Source of the DNA: Sinohyriopsis cumingii
Taxonomy: Eukaryota; Mollusca; Bivalvia; Unionida; Unionidae
Assembly: GCA_028554795.2 (NCBI GenBank)
Contig: CM068826.1
Location: forward strand, 100,089,846-100,153,845
Direction of reading: 5' to 3'
Length of the DNA: 64,000 bases
The notes under the pieces were generated by a model, which worked only from the letters and a program-made list of their open reading frames with translations, was not told the origin of the DNA and did no database searches. Position numbers and translations under genes: made by a program. Of the stretch, positions 55,941-64,000 are shown piece by piece. Numbering within the stretch: the first letter of the stretch is position 1; each line of letters opens with the position of its first letter.

Positions 55941-56402
55941 TAAAGAAGGTAGACAAATGTAAGCGTGTTTATTTGTGTTTAAAAATAGTTTTTGGGGGTG
56001 GGTAAGTTGAAAATAATACAGCGAAATTGCTTGCTATTCATGCTTTTAAATCTACATCTTTTATTTGTATGAGGACTGTTTTATCCCACGAATGCCTTGG
56101 TAGGATCGTCTACACAGCCTCATGAGGATGAGGGTAGTTTCAATTAACAATTATGCCATATCTGCCTCAACAGTAAAAAATAATCACAAGAAGTTAAATA
56201 TTTTCAGATAACTCTGAGCTAGAAAAAAAACCACATGAAAATATAGTTTATTTTGACTTGATAGTTTGAAATAAATTCTTGTAAAAGAAGTTTATCGACT
56301 GCATCCTTCAATTTGCACAGTCTTATTTCTCTGTCGAAGCATATTTCTAAGACATTGTGATGAACACCGTGCAAACACAAGCCATTTCGCAATCTTGTAA
56401 TT

Positions 56403-56935
56403 TAGAATTTAACAATGTAATTTAAAGTAATAGTGTATACAATATAGTAATTTAGAATAATAGTGTATACAATGTTATTTAGAATAATGGTGTATAGAAT
56501 GTAATTAGAATAATAGCGTATACAATGCAATTTAGAATAATAGTGTATACAATGTAGTAATTTAGAATAATAGTTTATATAATATATCAATTTAGAATAA
56601 CAGTTTATACAATGTAGTAATTTAGAATAATAATATATACAATGTAATTAGAATAATAGTGTATACAATGTAATTAGAATAATAGTTGATACAATGTAGT
56701 GATTTAGAATAATAGTGTATACAATGTAGCAATTTAGAATAATAGTGTATACGGTGTAATAATTTAGAATAATAGTGTATACAATGTAGGTTAAAATAAT
56801 AGTATATACAATGTAGTAAGTTAGAATAATAGTGCATACAACGTAATTTAACATAATAGTGTGCACAATATAATTTAGAATAATATCGTATACAATGTAG
56901 CAGTTTAGAATAATAGTATATACAATGTAATATAA
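56403..56935. repeat. 30-bp tandem array, about 18 copies
   Basis: Unit built on AATTTAGAATAATAGTGTAT followed by ACAATGTAGT, with units of 26-31 bp. On the minus strand it gives false Tyr-Ile-Val frames. It lies about 460 bp downstream of the FAM187-like poly(A) signals. Confidence 0.93.
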
Positions 56936-58239
56936 AATAGTTAACATCCAGATACCATCATTCTGTTTCAGGCAGCTAACTCTGCTTTCTGGCAAAATCT
57001 TGGTATCCCAGTGCACATATGAATACAATACAGTAACAAAGGCAGGTGTACATGATCCGTATCAATTTCTGGAGTATCGCAAGCCCATTTTGTTTTAAAA
57101 CACAAATATAACGCTATCTTTAATTACGAAATACTTTGAAGCAGATATACTGATACGATAGACCTAATTTAAGAAGTTGTAGCGGAGCCAGCTTATCAAA
57201 CTATCCCCGGCCATCTCACCATCCCATGCCTGAACATTCGGAATAATTCGAACCTTTTGCCATGTATTTTCTTAAGAATTGAAACAACGGGCTAATGTAT
57301 TTAAAGAAATCAGAAATGTTCAGAAAAATGAAGAGATCAATACTATTGGTTCAGCGCCTTTTGTTCGTTACGTAAATGTCACCAAAGAGTGATGATAGCA
57401 AAATCACGGGCAATTAACTTGTTTTAAATCGGGAGCTGCCGTTTTGCGAAAGCACGAATGGCTGCCGTTTGTGGTTATGGTTTGCCTCTATTTTGCTTTA
57501 AGTAATGTTTTCTGAAAACGATGTGACAACTCTGTATACTTCATTTTTTGTGTTTGTGCAGCGGAGAATGTTTTAAACAAGCTGAAGACAGGTTAAACGC
57601 GTTTCATTTCAGGAAACCGCATATGTTAAAAGAATGACTTTGCATGGACACCTATAATTCATCAACAAAACTTAAGTGAAGGTATGCTTTTACATGATAA
57701 ATTTATATAGCATTAGATCGTTTAAAATTGTTGCTTAAAAGTACCATTATAAATAGAAATATTAGTTCATGCGCCGATATGGATCTTTGATGCTGAGAAA
57801 TTTCGAATATTTATTTATATGTATGACTGACTGACTGACGATATTTCCTCTTCAAAAGTAATTGCATGAGCTTAATCAAATTCAGGATATACAAGATCAT
57901 GAAAAACAACAGAAAAGTGCCAAAATAAAAGAGTAGTACCAAAGTCAGCTACCGTACTGACAAAACGAAACATCTCAATATCCGCAGTCATGAAAATATG
58001 TAGTCAGAGTTAACTAGCATTTGGCTTAGCATGGCACTTATCTTTGAACATTTGCTGCATGATGATAATGAAGCAACGAATGTCAGCACGTCTATATTGT
58101 TATGTGATTAACATTAACTTTGAAATAGTAAAGAAAAGGAATGTGAAAGCTTGCAATATGTGTATTTCTTTCTACATGACAAATATATGCATGTATATAT
58201 GTTTGCATGCATGTGTTCGTGAGTGCGTGTAAGTAGTTA
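56936..58239. other. Intergenic stretch before the Polinton
   Basis: No coding feature recognised. The 57.2-57.65 kb segment is somewhat GC-richer but has no open frame with a known domain. Confidence 0.45.
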
Positions 58240-58450
58240 AGTGGGCCACCATAGGGACAATGGGACTTAGCATTAAAAACACCCCTGGGCAACTCTAGGG
58301 ACAATGGAAATTTAACATGGAGAAAAACGCTGGGCCACTTCAGGGACAATGGGAATTTAACATAGAGTTTGGGTCTGTCTAGGGACAAGGGAAATTAACA
58401 TGGGAATAGAGTTTGGGTTTGTCTAGGGACAAGGGGAATTGAATATGGGA
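58240..58450. repeat. Subterminal tandem repeats of the Polinton, about 45-bp unit
   Basis: About five imperfect units, each containing TAGGGACAATGGG or TAGGGACAAGGG followed by AATTTAACATGG-like sequence. Repeats of this kind are common inside Polinton terminal inverted repeats. Without the right end I cannot show the inversion. Confidence 0.7.
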
Positions 58451-58529
58451 TTTTTTTTTTTTTTTTTAAAAGTTTTTTTAAATTTAAATTTAAATTTAAA
58501 TTTAGAAAAGGGGTAGGCAATGGAAAGGC

Positions 58530-58569
58530 TATCTCTTTTCGAGAAATATGGCTGGCCCTGAAAAGGGCC
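58530..58569 (-). terminator. Histone-type 3' stem-loop and downstream element (Arg-rich gene)
   Basis: Read on the minus strand: CCCAAAGGCCCTTTTCAGGG, then CCAGCC. The 6-bp stem GGCCCT/AGGGCC closes a TTTC loop (58554-58569), preceded by CCAAA as in replication-dependent histone mRNAs. The purine-rich ATTTCTCGAAAAGA follows at the position of the histone downstream element bound by U7 snRNA. It lies about 24 nt after the stop codon. Confidence 0.88.
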
Positions 58570-58593
58570 TTTGGGTTTATGTTAATATTAATA

Positions 58594-58830
58594 TTAACAT
58601 AGATGGCATCTGTCACATCTTCTTCTTCTTCTTCTTAAACTCCTTCTAACTACCGGTCCATACACAAGTACCCTCTTGAGACATCCTTGTCTTTCTATGT
58701 AAACTCTCCTCATCCATTGACTAGTATCTGTCCTATCAACAACAGTCCACTTGGACCTGACATACATGAGCATGTCCGTCCTAAACATCATGGAAGACAC
58801 AAGGGTGGATGACTCAACTGTGGTCCACAT
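58594..58830 (-). CDS. Polinton small Arg-rich protein (78 aa)
   Basis: Basic 78-residue protein ending VVRRSLRRRRRRCDRCHLC; the Arg run is coded by a short AGA-type repeat. I recognise no family. An adenovirus core-peptide-like DNA-packing role is a guess from its composition. It has its own TATA box 45 nt upstream of the ATG (58875-58882, minus strand) and a histone-type stem-loop just after the stop. Both strongly support a real gene despite its size. Confidence 0.65.
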   Translation of the reverse strand: MWTTVESSTLVSSMMFRTDMLMYVRSKWTVVDRTDTSQWMRRVYIERQGCLKRVLVYGPVVRRSLRRRRRRCDRCHLC

Positions 58831-58874
58831 CTTGAAGCGACGAGAATAGGTGAATCAATGCAGTGAACTGTGCT

Positions 58875-58882
58875 TATTTATA
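58875..58882 (-). promoter_or_regulatory. TATA box of the Arg-rich gene
   Basis: TATAAATA on the minus strand, 45 nt before the start codon. It mirrors the TATA box of the divergent plus-strand gene. Confidence 0.7.
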
Positions 58883-58980
58883 GGTACAGGAAGGATTGAA
58901 ACGGATTGAATTCATTCACCAATCCGAACACGCGTTACAAAATTCAGTCAGCTCGCATCCAATCCGAAGAGAGCAGTCTG

Positions 58981-59003
58981 TGACGTCACGTGGTCTATAT
59001 AGA
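58981..59003 (+). promoter_or_regulatory. CRE, E-box and TATA box of the Gln-rich gene
   Basis: A perfect CRE/ATF palindrome TGACGTCA (58981-58988) overlaps an E-box CACGTG (58987-58992) and is followed by TCTATATAGA (58994-59003). The TATA box lies about 50 nt before the ATG at 59050. Factor use is inference from consensus matches. Confidence 0.7.
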
Positions 59004-59049
59004 TTCGTTAGCGCTTGTGTGCAGTCAATCTATGCGACAGTGATTCAAC

Positions 59050-59604
59050 ATGACGGAAACTCAGAAAACGATCCATTGGGGTGCACCAGCAGGGGAAACT
59101 GCCCAAGGGAACCCGGACTTACTTTCAGAAGAGGTACACTGGGATTTTGTGGATTTTCTTACCTCGCAAGAATTTGTTCCAGAACCTTCGTTACCTTCTT
59201 CATTACCGCAAGTGGAGAATTTTAGACAGAGACAGAAAGAAGAATTGGAGAAATTTATGCAACGACAAAAGGAAGCGGAACAAGCTTTTCTCCTACAGCA
59301 ACAGCAACAAGAAGAGGTAAGAAAAAAACAACAGCAACAACAGCAAGAAGAAGTAGCAGCAAAGAAACAAGAGGGTGAAAATCAAACGGCTACGGTACTG
59401 TTGGACATTTTAGCGGAGTTAAGAAGTCTGAAACAAATGTATCAGACTTCTTTATCACGACCGAAGAGAATACGACCTTCCCGAGCTAAACACGCCAACC
59501 CTGTGACTAAGCCTGTCGTACCACCCTTAGTGATTTCAACCCAATCATCAGAAGTAGGCCTTGGCCGTGGCAAAGGCTTAAGGCAGTTAAAGTTGATTGG
59601 TTAA
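59050..59604 (+). CDS. Polinton Gln-rich coiled-coil protein (184 aa)
   Basis: An acidic N-terminal third (LLSEEVHWDFVDFLTSQEFV), then a Gln/Glu/Lys-rich helix (about residues 55-110, with runs of Q) predicted to form a coiled coil, then a basic C-terminal tail (RPKRIRPSRAKHAN ... GRGKGLRQLKLIG). Family not recognised; it could be a structural or scaffold protein of the element. It has a TATA box about 50 nt upstream and a histone-type stem-loop 26 nt after the stop. It looks whole. Confidence 0.78.
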   Translation: MTETQKTIHWGAPAGETAQGNPDLLSEEVHWDFVDFLTSQEFVPEPSLPSSLPQVENFRQRQKEELEKFMQRQKEAEQAFLLQQQQQEEVRKKQQQQQQEEVAAKKQEGENQTATVLLDILAELRSLKQMYQTSLSRPKRIRPSRAKHANPVTKPVVPPLVISTQSSEVGLGRGKGLRQLKLIG

Positions 59605-59629
59605 ACTCACCCCTACACCAAAATAAAAA

Positions 59630-59668
59630 GGCCCTTTTCAGGGCCACCCACATTTCTCGAAAAGAAAT
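59630..59668 (+). terminator. Histone-type 3' stem-loop and downstream element (Gln-rich gene)
   Basis: GGCCCTTTTCAGGGCC (59630-59645) is a 6-bp stem with a 4-nt loop, followed by the canonical ACCCA. Then comes ATTTCTCGAAAAGAAAT, which shares ATTTCTCGAAAAGA with the minus-strand copy 1.1 kb away. This fits the animal histone mRNA 3' processing signal (SLBP-bound stem-loop, cleavage after ACCCA, U7-bound purine-rich element) and needs no poly(A) signal. Confidence 0.92.
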
Positions 59669-59897
59669 ACAATTTCAATTTGCCAATAACTCAAAAATAA
59701 ACCCCACCCATTTTACCCTTATAGTACGTGTCTGTGTATGAGTGCGTGAGTGTAGCTTCTTATTTTAAAATCAAAACTCAAAGACACTTACCTTATATCA
59801 TTCATGTATTCTTTTATCCATTTTTTTTACAATCCAATTCACAATTCACCACAGAACACTTTAATTAAAAGTTCATTGACTTCTTCTTTCTCCTTGT

Positions 59898-60368
59898 TTA
59901 GTCTCTCTGTTTTTTGAATTTCTTCACCGTTTTTACCTCATTTTCTTCCCTTCTTCTTTTCTTCTCCTGTTTCTTCGCTTCTTTTAAATAGAATTGTCTT
60001 CTTTCTTCCTCTTCTTCCTCTGAAGAATCCCTCTCTTCTTCCGAAGAATACCTCTCTTCTTCTGAAGAATCCTTCTTTTCTTCTGACTCCTCTTGTTTCT
60101 TTTTTGGGCAATCTGGAGACCAATGTCCTTTTTCTTTACAATAATAACAGGTATCTTGACTTTTGTCCTTTTTAGCCCCTGTTTTTTTTCTTTTTTGACG
60201 GTCTGGACACTCTGAAGACCAATGCCCTTTCTTCTGACAGATATAGCAAGTATCTTGACTTTTATCTCGAAAGGAAGGAGAGTAGTCCGTCGGCTGGTCT
60301 GAAGAGAATTTTCTAATGACCCCTCGCAAAGCTCTGACGAAACGTTCCATCTGGGTAGTCTCTTCCAT
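59898..60368 (-). CDS. Polinton zinc-knuckle protein (about 156 aa)
   Basis: Two CCHC zinc knuckles, CYICQKKGHWSSEC and CYYCKEKGHWSPDC, each preceded by DKSQDT and so duplicated. An acidic Ser/Glu repeat (SSEEER) and a basic Lys/Arg-rich end follow. It probably binds nucleic acid. The frame is open from an ATG at 60416, but that ATG sits almost at the TATA box (60421-60432). The ATG at 60368 (MEETTQMERF) leaves a normal leader and is preferred. It resembles knuckles of retroviral nucleocapsids and host CNBP, with no close match recognised. Confidence 0.78.
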   Translation of the reverse strand: MEETTQMERFVRALRGVIRKFSSDQPTDYSPSFRDKSQDTCYICQKKGHWSSECPDRQKRKKTGAKKDKSQDTCYYCKEKGHWSPDCPKKKQEESEEKKDSSEEERYSSEEERDSSEEEEEERRQFYLKEAKKQEKKRRREENEVKTVKKFKKQRD

Positions 60369-60420
60369 CGTTCTCCTCGGTTTGAGAGTGAAATGAATAG
60401 TGAAAGGACAAGACACACAC

Positions 60421-60458
60421 CCTTTTTATATACGCTGGTTTGCCATGACTATAAATTA
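60421..60458. promoter_or_regulatory. Back-to-back TATA boxes of the second divergent pair
   Basis: Minus-strand TATATAAAAAGG at 60421-60432 drives the zinc-knuckle gene. Plus-strand TATAAATTA at 60450-60458 lies about 46 nt before the ATG at 60504. An AP-1-like TGAGTCA lies at 60477-60483. Confidence 0.7.
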
Positions 60459-60503
60459 GTCTGTGGTGTTTAAACTTGAGTCATTTGACGTTTTTCACTC
60501 AAG

Positions 60504-61040
60504 ATGAAACGATCCCATTCATTCGAGAAGAAAGAAGAAGAAGAAAGTAAAAGGCGGAAACGTGATCTATCGCCTCGTACCAGAGCTGAAATCTTGGCAC
60601 AAATTCATGCCAGTGATTTTGAAGAGGACATGAGTGAACCAGAATTTGAAACCTCTAAACCAAGTTCACCACCCTTAGTCAACCCTGAAAAGTACTATTC
60701 CATTCGAGAGACGGAAAAGCGCTCCTCTAGAAAATTTAGAACCACGGCTTACACCTACACGGTGAAGTTTAAAGATTTCAAGGCCGACGTACCCTTGGAG
60801 AAAGCAGAAGGGTTTATCACCGAGATGTGGGATTCTTTGCTCACCGCACTCAAGCGACAATGTCAACCCAAAGAAGACGATCGCTTGACACTATCCATAG
60901 ATCATGACGGTTTGAAATCCCCTGTTTGGATCGAGTTTAGCAGACCTGCAGAACTAACCCCTTCCAAAATCATGGACAAGATTCAACACGTACAACATCT
61001 AATGACCAGTTTGACATCACCGATGGTAAAGCCACACTGA
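60504..61040 (+). CDS. Polinton PolB-associated protein (178 aa)
   Basis: A Lys/Glu/Arg-rich N terminus with likely nuclear signal (SKRRKRDLSP), an acidic linker, then a folded part: KFRTTAYTYTVKFKDF, then WDSLLTALKRQCQPKEDDRL and PVWIEFSRPAELTPSKIMDK. In many animal Polintons similar sequence stands just before the polymerase core. It is directly followed by the polymerase gene on the same strand. Role unknown. Confidence 0.75.
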   Translation: MKRSHSFEKKEEEESKRRKRDLSPRTRAEILAQIHASDFEEDMSEPEFETSKPSSPPLVNPEKYYSIRETEKRSSRKFRTTAYTYTVKFKDFKADVPLEKAEGFITEMWDSLLTALKRQCQPKEDDRLTLSIDHDGLKSPVWIEFSRPAELTPSKIMDKIQHVQHLMTSLTSPMVKPH

Positions 61041-61042
61041 AA

Positions 61043-64000
61043 ATGGCCCACGTCTCTCTTCCTCAAGGGACAGGACGCAAAAAGATGTTATTGGTGAACG
61101 AGCTTCGCAGCATTAAGCGTAGTCTTGTCCAAATTCACAATCCTCATGACCAGATGTGTTTAGCCCGTGCCATCGTGGTGGGACGAACCTATGCCAACAA
61201 GAACGACACAGTAGAATGGAAAAGAACCTGGGAGAACATTCGAAAATCGAACCGAACCAACCAACGAAACGAAGCAGAACTCCTGTTGCAACAAGCTGGC
61301 CTGTCCAAAGACACACCCTGTGGCATTCCTGAGATGCAAAAATTGCAAGATGCCCTAGCTCCACGCTACACCTTGAAAGTGCACCCTCAAGAAATGCGCG
61401 GGTCTCTGTTGTTTCGAGGCCAAGACTTTAAGGACGGAAAATACATTCATGTTTATCATCACGATGACCATTTCGATACCATTACCAGTATCACCGGATT
61501 CCTGGGATACAGATATTACTGTGAGAAATGTGACTATGGTTATAATAATCGAGAGCAACACAAGCATTGTGGATGGAAATGCCCAGGATGTTTGGCCTCT
61601 CCACCCTGTCTGAGCGAAGAACCAGTGCCTTGTTCGACTTGTCTGCGCACGTTTGTCAGCCCTACCTGTTACCAACAACATTTGAAAACACAAGGTTCAC
61701 AGAAGAAATGCGCTTGTCAACTCCTGAGATTGTGCCCTACGTGTAGACAAGGCATACGTACCAACAATGCCAAGGCACACGTATGTCGAGGAAAGAAAAA
61801 ATGTCACATTTGTCACCACATCGTGGACTTGGAACACGAATGTTACGTGCAAAAATACCAACCCCCACCAGAGAAAGAGGACGGTCACAAGAAGAAAGGC
61901 AATTTCATCTTTTTCGATTTCGAATGCATGCAAGAGACTGGCATTCACATCCCTAATTTCTGCGTGGCTCATCGAGCGTGCGAGAAGTGCATTCAAGAAC
62001 CTATCTTCAGTCATTGCCCTCACTGCAGCAAGATTCCTGGAGGACGTGAAAAAATCTTTCGGGGACCAAACACGTTAGCCGATTTTGCCTAATGGGTCTT
62101 AGACCCCATCGACAAGACGTGGAGCCAAGGGGACATCGAACGTTACGGAGATTGTCATCGTCATGCCACGGTGATGGCTCACAATTTCTCCGGATACGAT
62201 GGACAGTTTCTTTTGAGGTACTATACGGAACATGGCACCGAACGTCCTAAAGTGATTTTGAACGGAGCCAAAATCATTTTCATGCAAGTGGGACAAGTAC
62301 AGTTTAAAGATTCGATGAGTTACTTGGCCATGCCTTTGAGCCGAATGCCTAAAACGTTTGGAATGACAGAAATGGCTAAAGGGTACTTTCCACACTTTTT
62401 CAATACGGAAGCCAATCAACATGCTGTTCTACCCCATTTGCCTGAGGCTCACTATTACGACCCCGACAACATGCGTACCGAACAACGAGAAGCTTTCTAC
62501 GCTTGGTACCAAGCTCACGCCTCGGACCCTTTCGACTTTCAGGAAGAAATGTTAAAGTATTGTCGTTCCGACGTGGACATTTTACGGCGTTGCTGTGGAA
62601 AATTTCGAGAACTGTTCATGGAACACGGAGGGGTCGATCCTTTGAAAGAAGCTTGCACCATTGCCAAAGCGTGTTCCTTAGTGTACCGGCAACGATTCAT
62701 GCCTGAAAACACCGTGGCTGTCATCAGTCCTCAAACGACCCACTATGTCAAGCGTCAATACTCGGTCAAAGCCCTACGTTGGTTACATTACTTGTGCGAC
62801 AAGGAAGACAAATGGATTCAGCATGCCCGCAACGGAGGAGGCGAAAAGACCATCGGAACGTATTCGGTAGATGGCTGGGACTTAGAAAACCCCAAGATCG
62901 TGTACGAGTTTAACGGTTGCTTATTTCACGGATGTCCCGTCTGTTACCCTGACCGTGGCACTAAAAATCAGTTTTTGCAACGAACCATGGAAGACTTGTA
63001 CCAGGACACTTGTCAGCGACGCCTAAAGTTAGAACAGCAAGGATACCAAGTGGTGGAAATGTGGGAACACGAGTACGATCACCGTTTGAAAACCGATCCC
63101 GAGTTTAAACGCCTCGTGGAAAGTTACCAGTTCATGGACCCGCTGAACCCGAGGGATAGTTTGTACGGAGGAAGGACCAATGCCACCTGTTTGCTGTACC
63201 AAGCCGACGAAGAGAAAGGAGAAGAAATCAAATACTTGGACGTGTGTTCGCTGTATCTCTACGTGTGCAAATATTGTCGCTTTCCTGTAGGGCACCCGCA
63301 ATTGTTCACGGAACACATCGACCTGAAAAACATTCGACAATACGAAGGCTTGATCAAGTGTAAAGTTTTGCCTCCCACGAACCTATACCATCCCGTCTTA
63401 CCTCACCATTGTCAAGGCAAACTGATGTTTCCCTTGTGCCGTACTTGTGCTGAAACGTGCAACCAGGACCAACCTTGCCATCACAGCCAGGAAGAACGTG
63501 CCTTGACGGGAACCTGGGTCAGCGTGGAATTGTTCAAAGCTCTGGACATGGGATACCAACTGTTAGAAGTGTACGAAATTTGCCACTTTCCCAAGACACA
63601 ACAGTACCACAAGGGTGACCCTACTCAGAAAGGCATTTTCGCTGACTACGTGGATGCCTTTTTGAAACTGAAACAAGAAGCCAGCGGCTATCCTTCCTGG
63701 TGTCACACTCCCGAAGACCAAATACAATTCAAAGAGAAATACTACGCACAAGAAGGCATCTCTTTAGACCACATCGAAAAAAACGAAGGCAGGCGATCGT
63801 TTGCCAAAGTGATGTTAAATTGCTTGTGGGGTAAAATGGCACAACGACCGTGTTTACCCAAGACGGAATATTTGACAGAACCTTCCCGCTACTTCCAGAT
63901 GATTCACGACAAAACCAAATACATGAAACACGTGGACGTCGTTCGAGAGAATTTGATCTTGGTCAATTACGACGAAGATCTGGACTTTGTACAAGACGAC
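61043..64000 (+). pseudogene. Polinton protein-primed family B DNA polymerase (broken, runs off window)
   Basis: Conserved parts in order: LCLARAIVV-type N-terminal region (seen as MCLARAIVVGRTYANK), a long Cys/His cluster rich in CxxC pairs (about residues 158-270), the exonuclease motif FIFFDFECMQETG (Asp-x-Glu), an AHNFSGYDGQFLLRYY exonuclease region, the motif A region YLDVCSLYLYVCKYCRFPVG, and the motif B region KVMLNCLWGKMAQR. These identify pPolB of Polintons and relatives, which replicates the element's own DNA from a protein primer. The window ends before the last motifs. The copy looks broken by about one change and otherwise well preserved, suggesting young age. Confidence 0.92.

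Follow-up and report, generated by a model that had tools for sequence, protein, structure and literature searches.

The window, that is, the whole stretch of 64 kb analysed here (C3:100089846-100153845 of a 2.9-Gb genome, which looks molluscan by its size and histone genes), contains the left 5.8 kb of a mobile element (58232..64000, plus strand), whose total length is 17,037 bp and which ends 3' of the window (L069:1268). The element is flanked by a 6 bp target site duplication, CGTGTA, found at 58226..58231 and again past the right end (L069:1269-1274), and is bordered by terminal inverted repeats, the left of which (586 bp, 58232..58817, plus strand) is identical to the right one at 582 of 586 positions. 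An A+T-rich repeat array with units of about 27-30 bp lies just outside the element, at 56395-56940.

In the defining passages of earlier papers Polintons (Mavericks) are described as elements of 15-20 kb with terminal repeats, a 6-bp target duplication, PolB, an RVE integrase, an FtsK/A32 ATPase, an adenovirus-like cysteine protease and two capsid proteins, a major one with a double and a minor one with a single jelly roll (PMC4028283, PMC11071296, PMC8097293), and adintoviruses as having a PolB with an N-terminal OTU-like domain (PMC11071296). By its length, its terminal repeats, the 6-bp duplication and its genes for PolB, an A32/FtsK-type ATPase and an rve integrase with a C-terminal chromodomain, the present element is like Polintons/Mavericks (adintovirus-like), in agreement with the sequence-only reading, in which it had been called a Polinton. 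The DNA polymerase B region (PF03175) starts at 61043 on the plus strand, fills the window to its end (61043..64000) and continues past it; the match (E 3.8e-42) is on the piece that follows an in-frame stop codon (62090-62092), which means that the PolB gene of this copy is broken. The integrase matched PF00665 (rve, E 2.5e-14) and, at its C-terminus, the chromodomain family PF00385 (E 1.3e-7), and the packaging ATPase scored above the cut-off of PF04665 (E 1.2e-7). No Pfam match to an adenovirus-like cysteine protease was obtained with those element ORFs that were scanned. The size and order of two core ORFs would fit the penton and major capsid proteins; these putative capsid ORFs had no match in Pfam, PHROGs or NCBIfam or among the sequences of the PDB.

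The outermost genes on the left are an Arg-rich ORF on the minus strand (58594..58830; 78 aa, net charge about +12; pN/pS 0.21 in 16 intact copies), most of which is included in the terminal repeat, and a Gln-rich ORF on the plus strand (59050..59604; 184 aa; pN/pS 0.47 in 11 intact copies). The sequence-only reading had thought of structural or DNA-binding products; neither protein scored above the cut-off of any Pfam family. TATAAA is located 52 nt 5' of the Arg-rich ATG (58877..58882, minus strand) and TATATA 54 nt 5' of the Gln-rich ATG (58996..59001, plus strand). By eye, CCAATCC/GGATTG motifs are visible on both strands of the divergent promoter between them (58895-58993), and TGACGTCACGTGG adjoins the plus-strand TATA. 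Further inward there are a zinc-knuckle (CCHC) ORF on the minus strand (59898..60368), which lacks a stem-loop and has ATTAAA 32 nt past its stop codon, and a plus-strand ORF of 178 aa with no assigned function (60504..61040), which has neither a stem-loop nor a poly(A) hexamer within 250 nt.

Histone-type signals behind the terminal genes

The stem-loop sequence GGCCCTTTTCAGGGCC follows the Arg-rich gene at 58569-58554 on the minus strand and the Gln-rich gene at 59630-59645 on the plus strand. The sequence-only reading had claimed that both genes end in histone mRNA-type stem-loops about 25 nt past the stop codon, with CCAAA before one of them, ACCCA after the other and a common block downstream, and each of these points was confirmed. 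The measured distances are 24 nt for the Arg-rich and 25 nt for the Gln-rich ORF, CCAAA is 5' of the minus-strand and ACCCA 3' of the plus-strand copy, and ATTTCTCGAAAAGA is found downstream of both, with GAAAAG beginning 14 nt past each stem-loop. This block, which resembles a histone downstream element, reads GAAAAGA at 58534..58540 (minus strand) and at 59659..59665 (plus strand). Scored against RF00032, the Rfam model of the histone 3' UTR stem-loop (Histone3; gathering cut-off 34 bits), the minus-strand stem-loop reached 35.6 bits (E 1.2e-6) and the plus-strand one 41.2 bits (E 9.6e-9), and when the 64 kb were compared with 4227 Rfam families, these two were the only matches above any cut-off. 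Allowing up to three mismatches, GGCCCTTTTCAGGGCC had 2 matches in the whole window, whereas 100 shuffles gave 0.09 on average; the shuffles, together with genome-wide reversed-pattern controls that gave zero matches (see below), reject a chance origin of the stem-loops. The minus-strand stem-loop is included in the left terminal repeat, and the right repeat, beyond the window, has a further copy with one mismatch. A palindrome, TGTTAATATTAATATTAACA (58577-58600), which occurs in other copies in the forms TGTTAATGGATACATTAACA or TTAAGGGCATATTAA, spans the stop codon of the Arg-rich ORF just 5' of the stem-loop.

Two ORFs at the right end of the element, beyond the window, also have a stem-loop: orf8512 (L068:8512-8871) and orf9364 (L068:9364-9750). 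In these AGCCCTTTTCAGGGCT is placed 32 nt (orf8512) or 28 nt (orf9364) past the stop codon and is followed by CTAGAAAAGA. AGCCCTTTTCAGGGCT (A-type) differs from GGCCCTTTTCAGGGCC (G-type) in the first stem pair, which has changed from G-C to A-U with both sides altered, and the RF00032 scores of the two right-end stem-loops, 31.0 and 29.3 bits (E 1.5e-6 and 6.3e-6 in that stretch), do not reach the cut-off of 34. Thus all four signal-bearing genes of this element, which are placed independently of one another, have a stem-loop in sense orientation 24-32 nt past the stop codon, its 6-bp stem perfectly paired and its loop 4 nt long, and GAAAAG 14-15 nt past it. The four genes are short and apparently intronless, and three of them have a TATA box near the ATG. 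In contrast, none of the core ORFs, 10 in number from PolB up to the putative major capsid protein, had a stem-loop within 250 nt of its stop codon; the first poly(A) hexamer of this core block is an AATAAA located 166 nt past the last putative capsid gene. As for the terminal genes, AATAAA is present just 5' of the Gln-rich stem-loop in 6 of 17 copies, that of the window included, and 113 nt past orf8512, and the 250 nt that follow the stop codons of the Arg-rich gene and orf9364 contain no poly(A) hexamer.

The signals were compared with those of the host's histone genes, which are arranged in repeats of about 8.27 kb, using one repeat unit (L070) with H3, H4, H2B, H2A and H1. All five histone stem-loops scored above the RF00032 cut-off (35.0-39.4 bits), and GAAAAG begins 14 nt (H3, H4 and H2B) or 15 nt (H2A and H1) past the stem-loop, so the element agrees with this host unit both in the block and in its spacing, a comparison that the sequence-only reading had proposed. 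Further similarities to replication-dependent histone genes are the 6-bp stem, the 4-nt loop, the ACC that follows, the distance from the stop codon, the TATA boxes near the ATG and the lack of apparent introns. There are also differences: the stem-loop genes of the element encode no histone, the right-end genes have an A-U first pair unlike the host histone stem-loops, and the left-end genes lack the C before GG present in the host's four core histone genes. Apart from the common blocks, the sequences flanking the element's signals do not clearly resemble any of the five histone 3' ends.

A third block was noticed on viewing the sequences, and the motifs were chosen afterwards. YTGYY occurs 34-36 nt past the stem-loop in five of five host histone genes (0.27 expected by shuffling), and TTGYC about 34 nt past it in 54 of 60 distinct, although mutually related, element stretches (0.5 by shuffling); behind the Gln-rich gene of the window it reads TTGCC (59680..59684, plus strand; 35 nt past the stem-loop). 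This block might be an additional part of the processing signal.

The human U7 snRNA contains CUCUUUU, which is complementary to AAAAGAG. A search of the host genome for U7 snRNA by RF00066 gave 0 matches with a control that was unable to give a signal, and a motif search for U7 yielded 12 places, none of them with a convincing 3' hairpin. The SLBP RNA-binding domain, which would be split by introns if present, also had 0 matches in the host genome, with a control that was likewise silent.

Copies of the element in the genome

At least 75 places of the genome were scored by Rfam as histone stem-loops, all of them above the cut-off, and the best 30 of these 75 served as loci for comparing copies. 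An element gene was found in 30 of the 30 loci and a histone gene in none, and by tblastn neither the window nor L025-L069 showed similarity to histones. The idea that the segment is a captured fragment of a histone cluster, against which the sequence-only reading had cautioned, was rejected on these grounds.

Since each locus had been picked via one stem-loop, only its other ("off-centre") stem-loops were judged. Nine of 13 off-centre stem-loops of the Gln-rich gene were exact and four were damaged, whereas GAAAAG was in place in all 13. Mismatch frequencies in these 13 copies were 0% for GAAAAGA, 4.7% for the stem-loop, 5.2-7.4% for the codon positions, 20% for the spacer and 28% further downstream; over all 17 Gln-rich copies GAAAAGA had 3.3% mismatch (L037 and L051, which have no Gln-rich 3' end, were left out of the 3'-end counts). 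The value of 0% beside a spacer diverged by 20% shows that the downstream block is clearly constrained; the stem-loop itself is hardly more conserved than the codon positions because the copies are young. The off-centre Arg-rich stem-loops were exact in four of four cases, although synonymous sites of the Arg-rich gene differ by 43% among 16 intact ORFs. 

The right-end genes were followed in 14 loci, in which the stem was perfectly paired in 11 of 14 cases and GAAAAG present in 13 of 14, for orf8512 and orf9364 alike. In other copies the last right-end gene encodes a different charged protein, of which two types were seen, and is followed by a G-type stem-loop, 15-21 nt past the stop codon in the intact ORFs among those listed. 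The pN/pS ratio was 0.26 for orf8512 (7 ORFs) and 0.36 for each of the two other right-end types (5 and 3 ORFs). In other copies, then, these genes are again followed by the signal, which is decayed in some of them; this answers a check proposed in the sequence-only reading. A second hairpin around GAAAAG was also considered, but its paired cells rose and fell with the slid controls and no claim is made for it. In one locus (L067, G000:C3:65400900-65410899), a nested or rearranged copy, an Arg-rich/Gln-rich pair is flanked on both sides by a right-end gene, and three G-type stem-loops are found on the minus strand.

In the whole genome there are 34,230 exact copies of the G-type and 21,286 of the A-type stem-loop, and the one-sided intermediates are few (410 AGCCC...GGGCC and 271 GGCCC...GGGCT); the reversed-pattern control gave 0 for each of the four patterns. 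The split into A-type and G-type was probably a single old event multiplied by copying, so these counts show that pairing was retained, not that it changed many times independently. GAAAAG is located exactly 14 nt past the G-type stem-loop in 30,498 of 34,230 places (89%). Part of the G-type places belong to host H2B genes. Of 100 G-type places taken from the start of the listing, 56 fall into 28 outward-facing pairs whose members are separated by 1066-1104 bp, as the Arg-rich and Gln-rich signals are. At least one stem-loop at the proper end and on the proper strand was found for 26 of these 28 pairs, and at least two A-type and one G-type stem-loops for 17, compared with 7 pairs with any and 3 with at least two A-type stem-loops in the wrong-strand control. 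With about three G-type and two A-type signals per element, the numbers correspond to roughly ten thousand copies, an estimate derived from signals and not from a count of elements. The exact element-type stem-loops amount to 55,516, as against at least 150 histone ORFs scored.

Origin and possible use of the signals

Taken together, these observations make us confident that the terminal genes of this Polinton carry behind them the 3'-end signal of the host's replication-dependent histone genes, whereas the core genes do not. With somewhat less assurance, we think it probable that the metazoan histone 3'-end code was adopted for the modules at both ends of the element, giving replication-timed ends around a polyadenylated core in the order of ten thousand copies, with element signals far outnumbering those of the host's histone genes. 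In the part of PMC9756948 that deals with this pathway, which comprises SLBP, the histone downstream element (HDE) and U7, S phase is described as the only time at which histone locus bodies contain the active machinery. By analogy, the stem-loop would be bound by host SLBP and the GAAAAG block paired with U7 snRNP, and a cut made between the two by the histone cleavage complex would yield short intronless mRNAs without poly(A). Judged from the sequence, host histone 3'-end processing is most likely what forms the ends of the terminal genes. The unpolyadenylated ends and the limitation to S phase that the sequence-only reading had proposed would follow from such processing: the terminal genes may be expressed mainly while it is active, in S phase and possibly in the oocyte and early embryo. 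The core block would run to a poly(A) signal, and the element would thus have two 3'-end programmes.

A possible but less probable reading is that the histone-type ends are real and used, and that instead of coupling to S phase they serve maternal or germline storage, help mRNAs without introns to be exported or translated, or allow histone-type ends to be exchanged for poly(A) ends. The terminal genes are indeed short and apparently intronless, and the AATAAA near the Gln-rich and orf8512 stem-loops suggests that some polyadenylation is possible and leaves room for a switch as in human H2AC18, for which the relevant section of PMC9756948 describes overlapping poly(A) and HDE signals whose use is mutually exclusive. 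On the other side, AATAAA precedes the stem-loop in just 6 of the 17 Gln-rich copies, and a poly(A) hexamer is missing within 250 nt of the Arg-rich and orf9364 stop codons. Germline use is a serious variant, considering that in C. elegans oocytes, according to the portion of PMC12803260 concerned with them, histone mRNAs are kept by a stem-loop-binding complex other than SLBP.

The remaining explanations appear much weaker. That the element once captured the 3' end of a histone gene and has since copied it passively, without present use, is quite improbable: very many copies did arise from few ancestors, and damaged stem-loops occur (four of the 13 off-centre ones of the Gln-rich gene and three of 14 both for orf8512 and for orf9364), but the gene classes differ in a stem pair of which both partners have changed, with few intermediates, GAAAAGA is unchanged in 13 off-centre copies beside a divergent spacer, and outside the common blocks the flanks do not clearly resemble any of the five host histone 3' ends. 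We give very little credence to the notion that the hairpins work as DNA in the terminal repeats, as origin, terminus or integrase recognition site, and are like histone signals by accident. It would fit the location of the Arg-rich stem-loop inside the terminal repeat, hence at both ends, and the common sequence downstream of the outward-facing stem-loops; it does not fit the Gln-rich, orf8512 and orf9364 stem-loops, which are outside the repeat, the sense orientation of every stem-loop to the gene just ended, or GAAAAG at the host spacing. Least probable of all is that the stem-loop RNAs are a sponge for SLBP or U7 that perturbs the host's histone supply, since, large as the excess of exact stem-loops over scored histone ORFs is (see above), genomic copies count only if transcribed, and the signals follow coding ORFs under purifying constraint.

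PMC12803260 and PMC9756948 present the stem-loop pathway of SLBP and U7 as peculiar to the mRNAs of replication-dependent histones, and the present element differs from described Polintons/Mavericks in the histone-type 3' signals of its terminal genes; in a survey of vertebrate Mavericks (PMC8097293) the words histone, polyadenyl and stem-loop are absent. The sequence-only reading knew of no earlier description of this feature. That view held in so far as no description of histone-type 3' ends on Polinton genes was found in the open-licence literature, but it has to be qualified by a bare count in print: Bulzu et al. 2025 (PMC12220804) list six histone 3' UTR stem-loops (n = 6), identified by Rfam, among 8,300 genomes of Polinton-like viruses and virophages, so that the same Rfam family is matched in related elements. 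None of the six is in cryptophyte elements, and the main text, as far as available, names no gene, downstream element or interpretation. In IMG/VR the strict stem-loop pattern had 0 matches, and the loose pattern hit 6 stretches, none with element genes, histone Rfam matches or GAAAAG in the 35 nt shown. Queries with the PolB piece, the putative major capsid protein and the integrase found no relative there, single-protein queries of this kind reaching close relatives only; a PolB motif picked out 24 stretches, which gave no tblastn match at E 0.01 and whose 197,452 bases contain nothing like the stem-loop.

A virus-like mobile element that has very many copies and the animal's own histone RNA signal on its outermost genes suggests, as far as sequence can tell, that histone mRNA machinery was borrowed. 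If so, the histone 3'-end pathway can be taken over by a mobile element, Polintons would have a direct means of tying the timing of their expression to the germ line or to the replication of the host's DNA, and their little-known life cycle would become testable. Should the copies be transcribed, the question arises how the host's supply of SLBP and U7 copes with them. The copies of the element also form a very large natural collection of histone-type 3' ends, in which the positions that matter could be studied. Two clusters of stem-loops stand apart from the usual arrangement. At G000:C1:5073417-5084538 seven stem-loops on the same strand, spaced every 1850-1852 bp, form a tandem array of the element end, and at G000:C3:8673907-8674261 eight A-C mismatched copies of AGCCC...GGGCC, about 49 bp apart, form a short tandem repeat with a damaged stem-loop.
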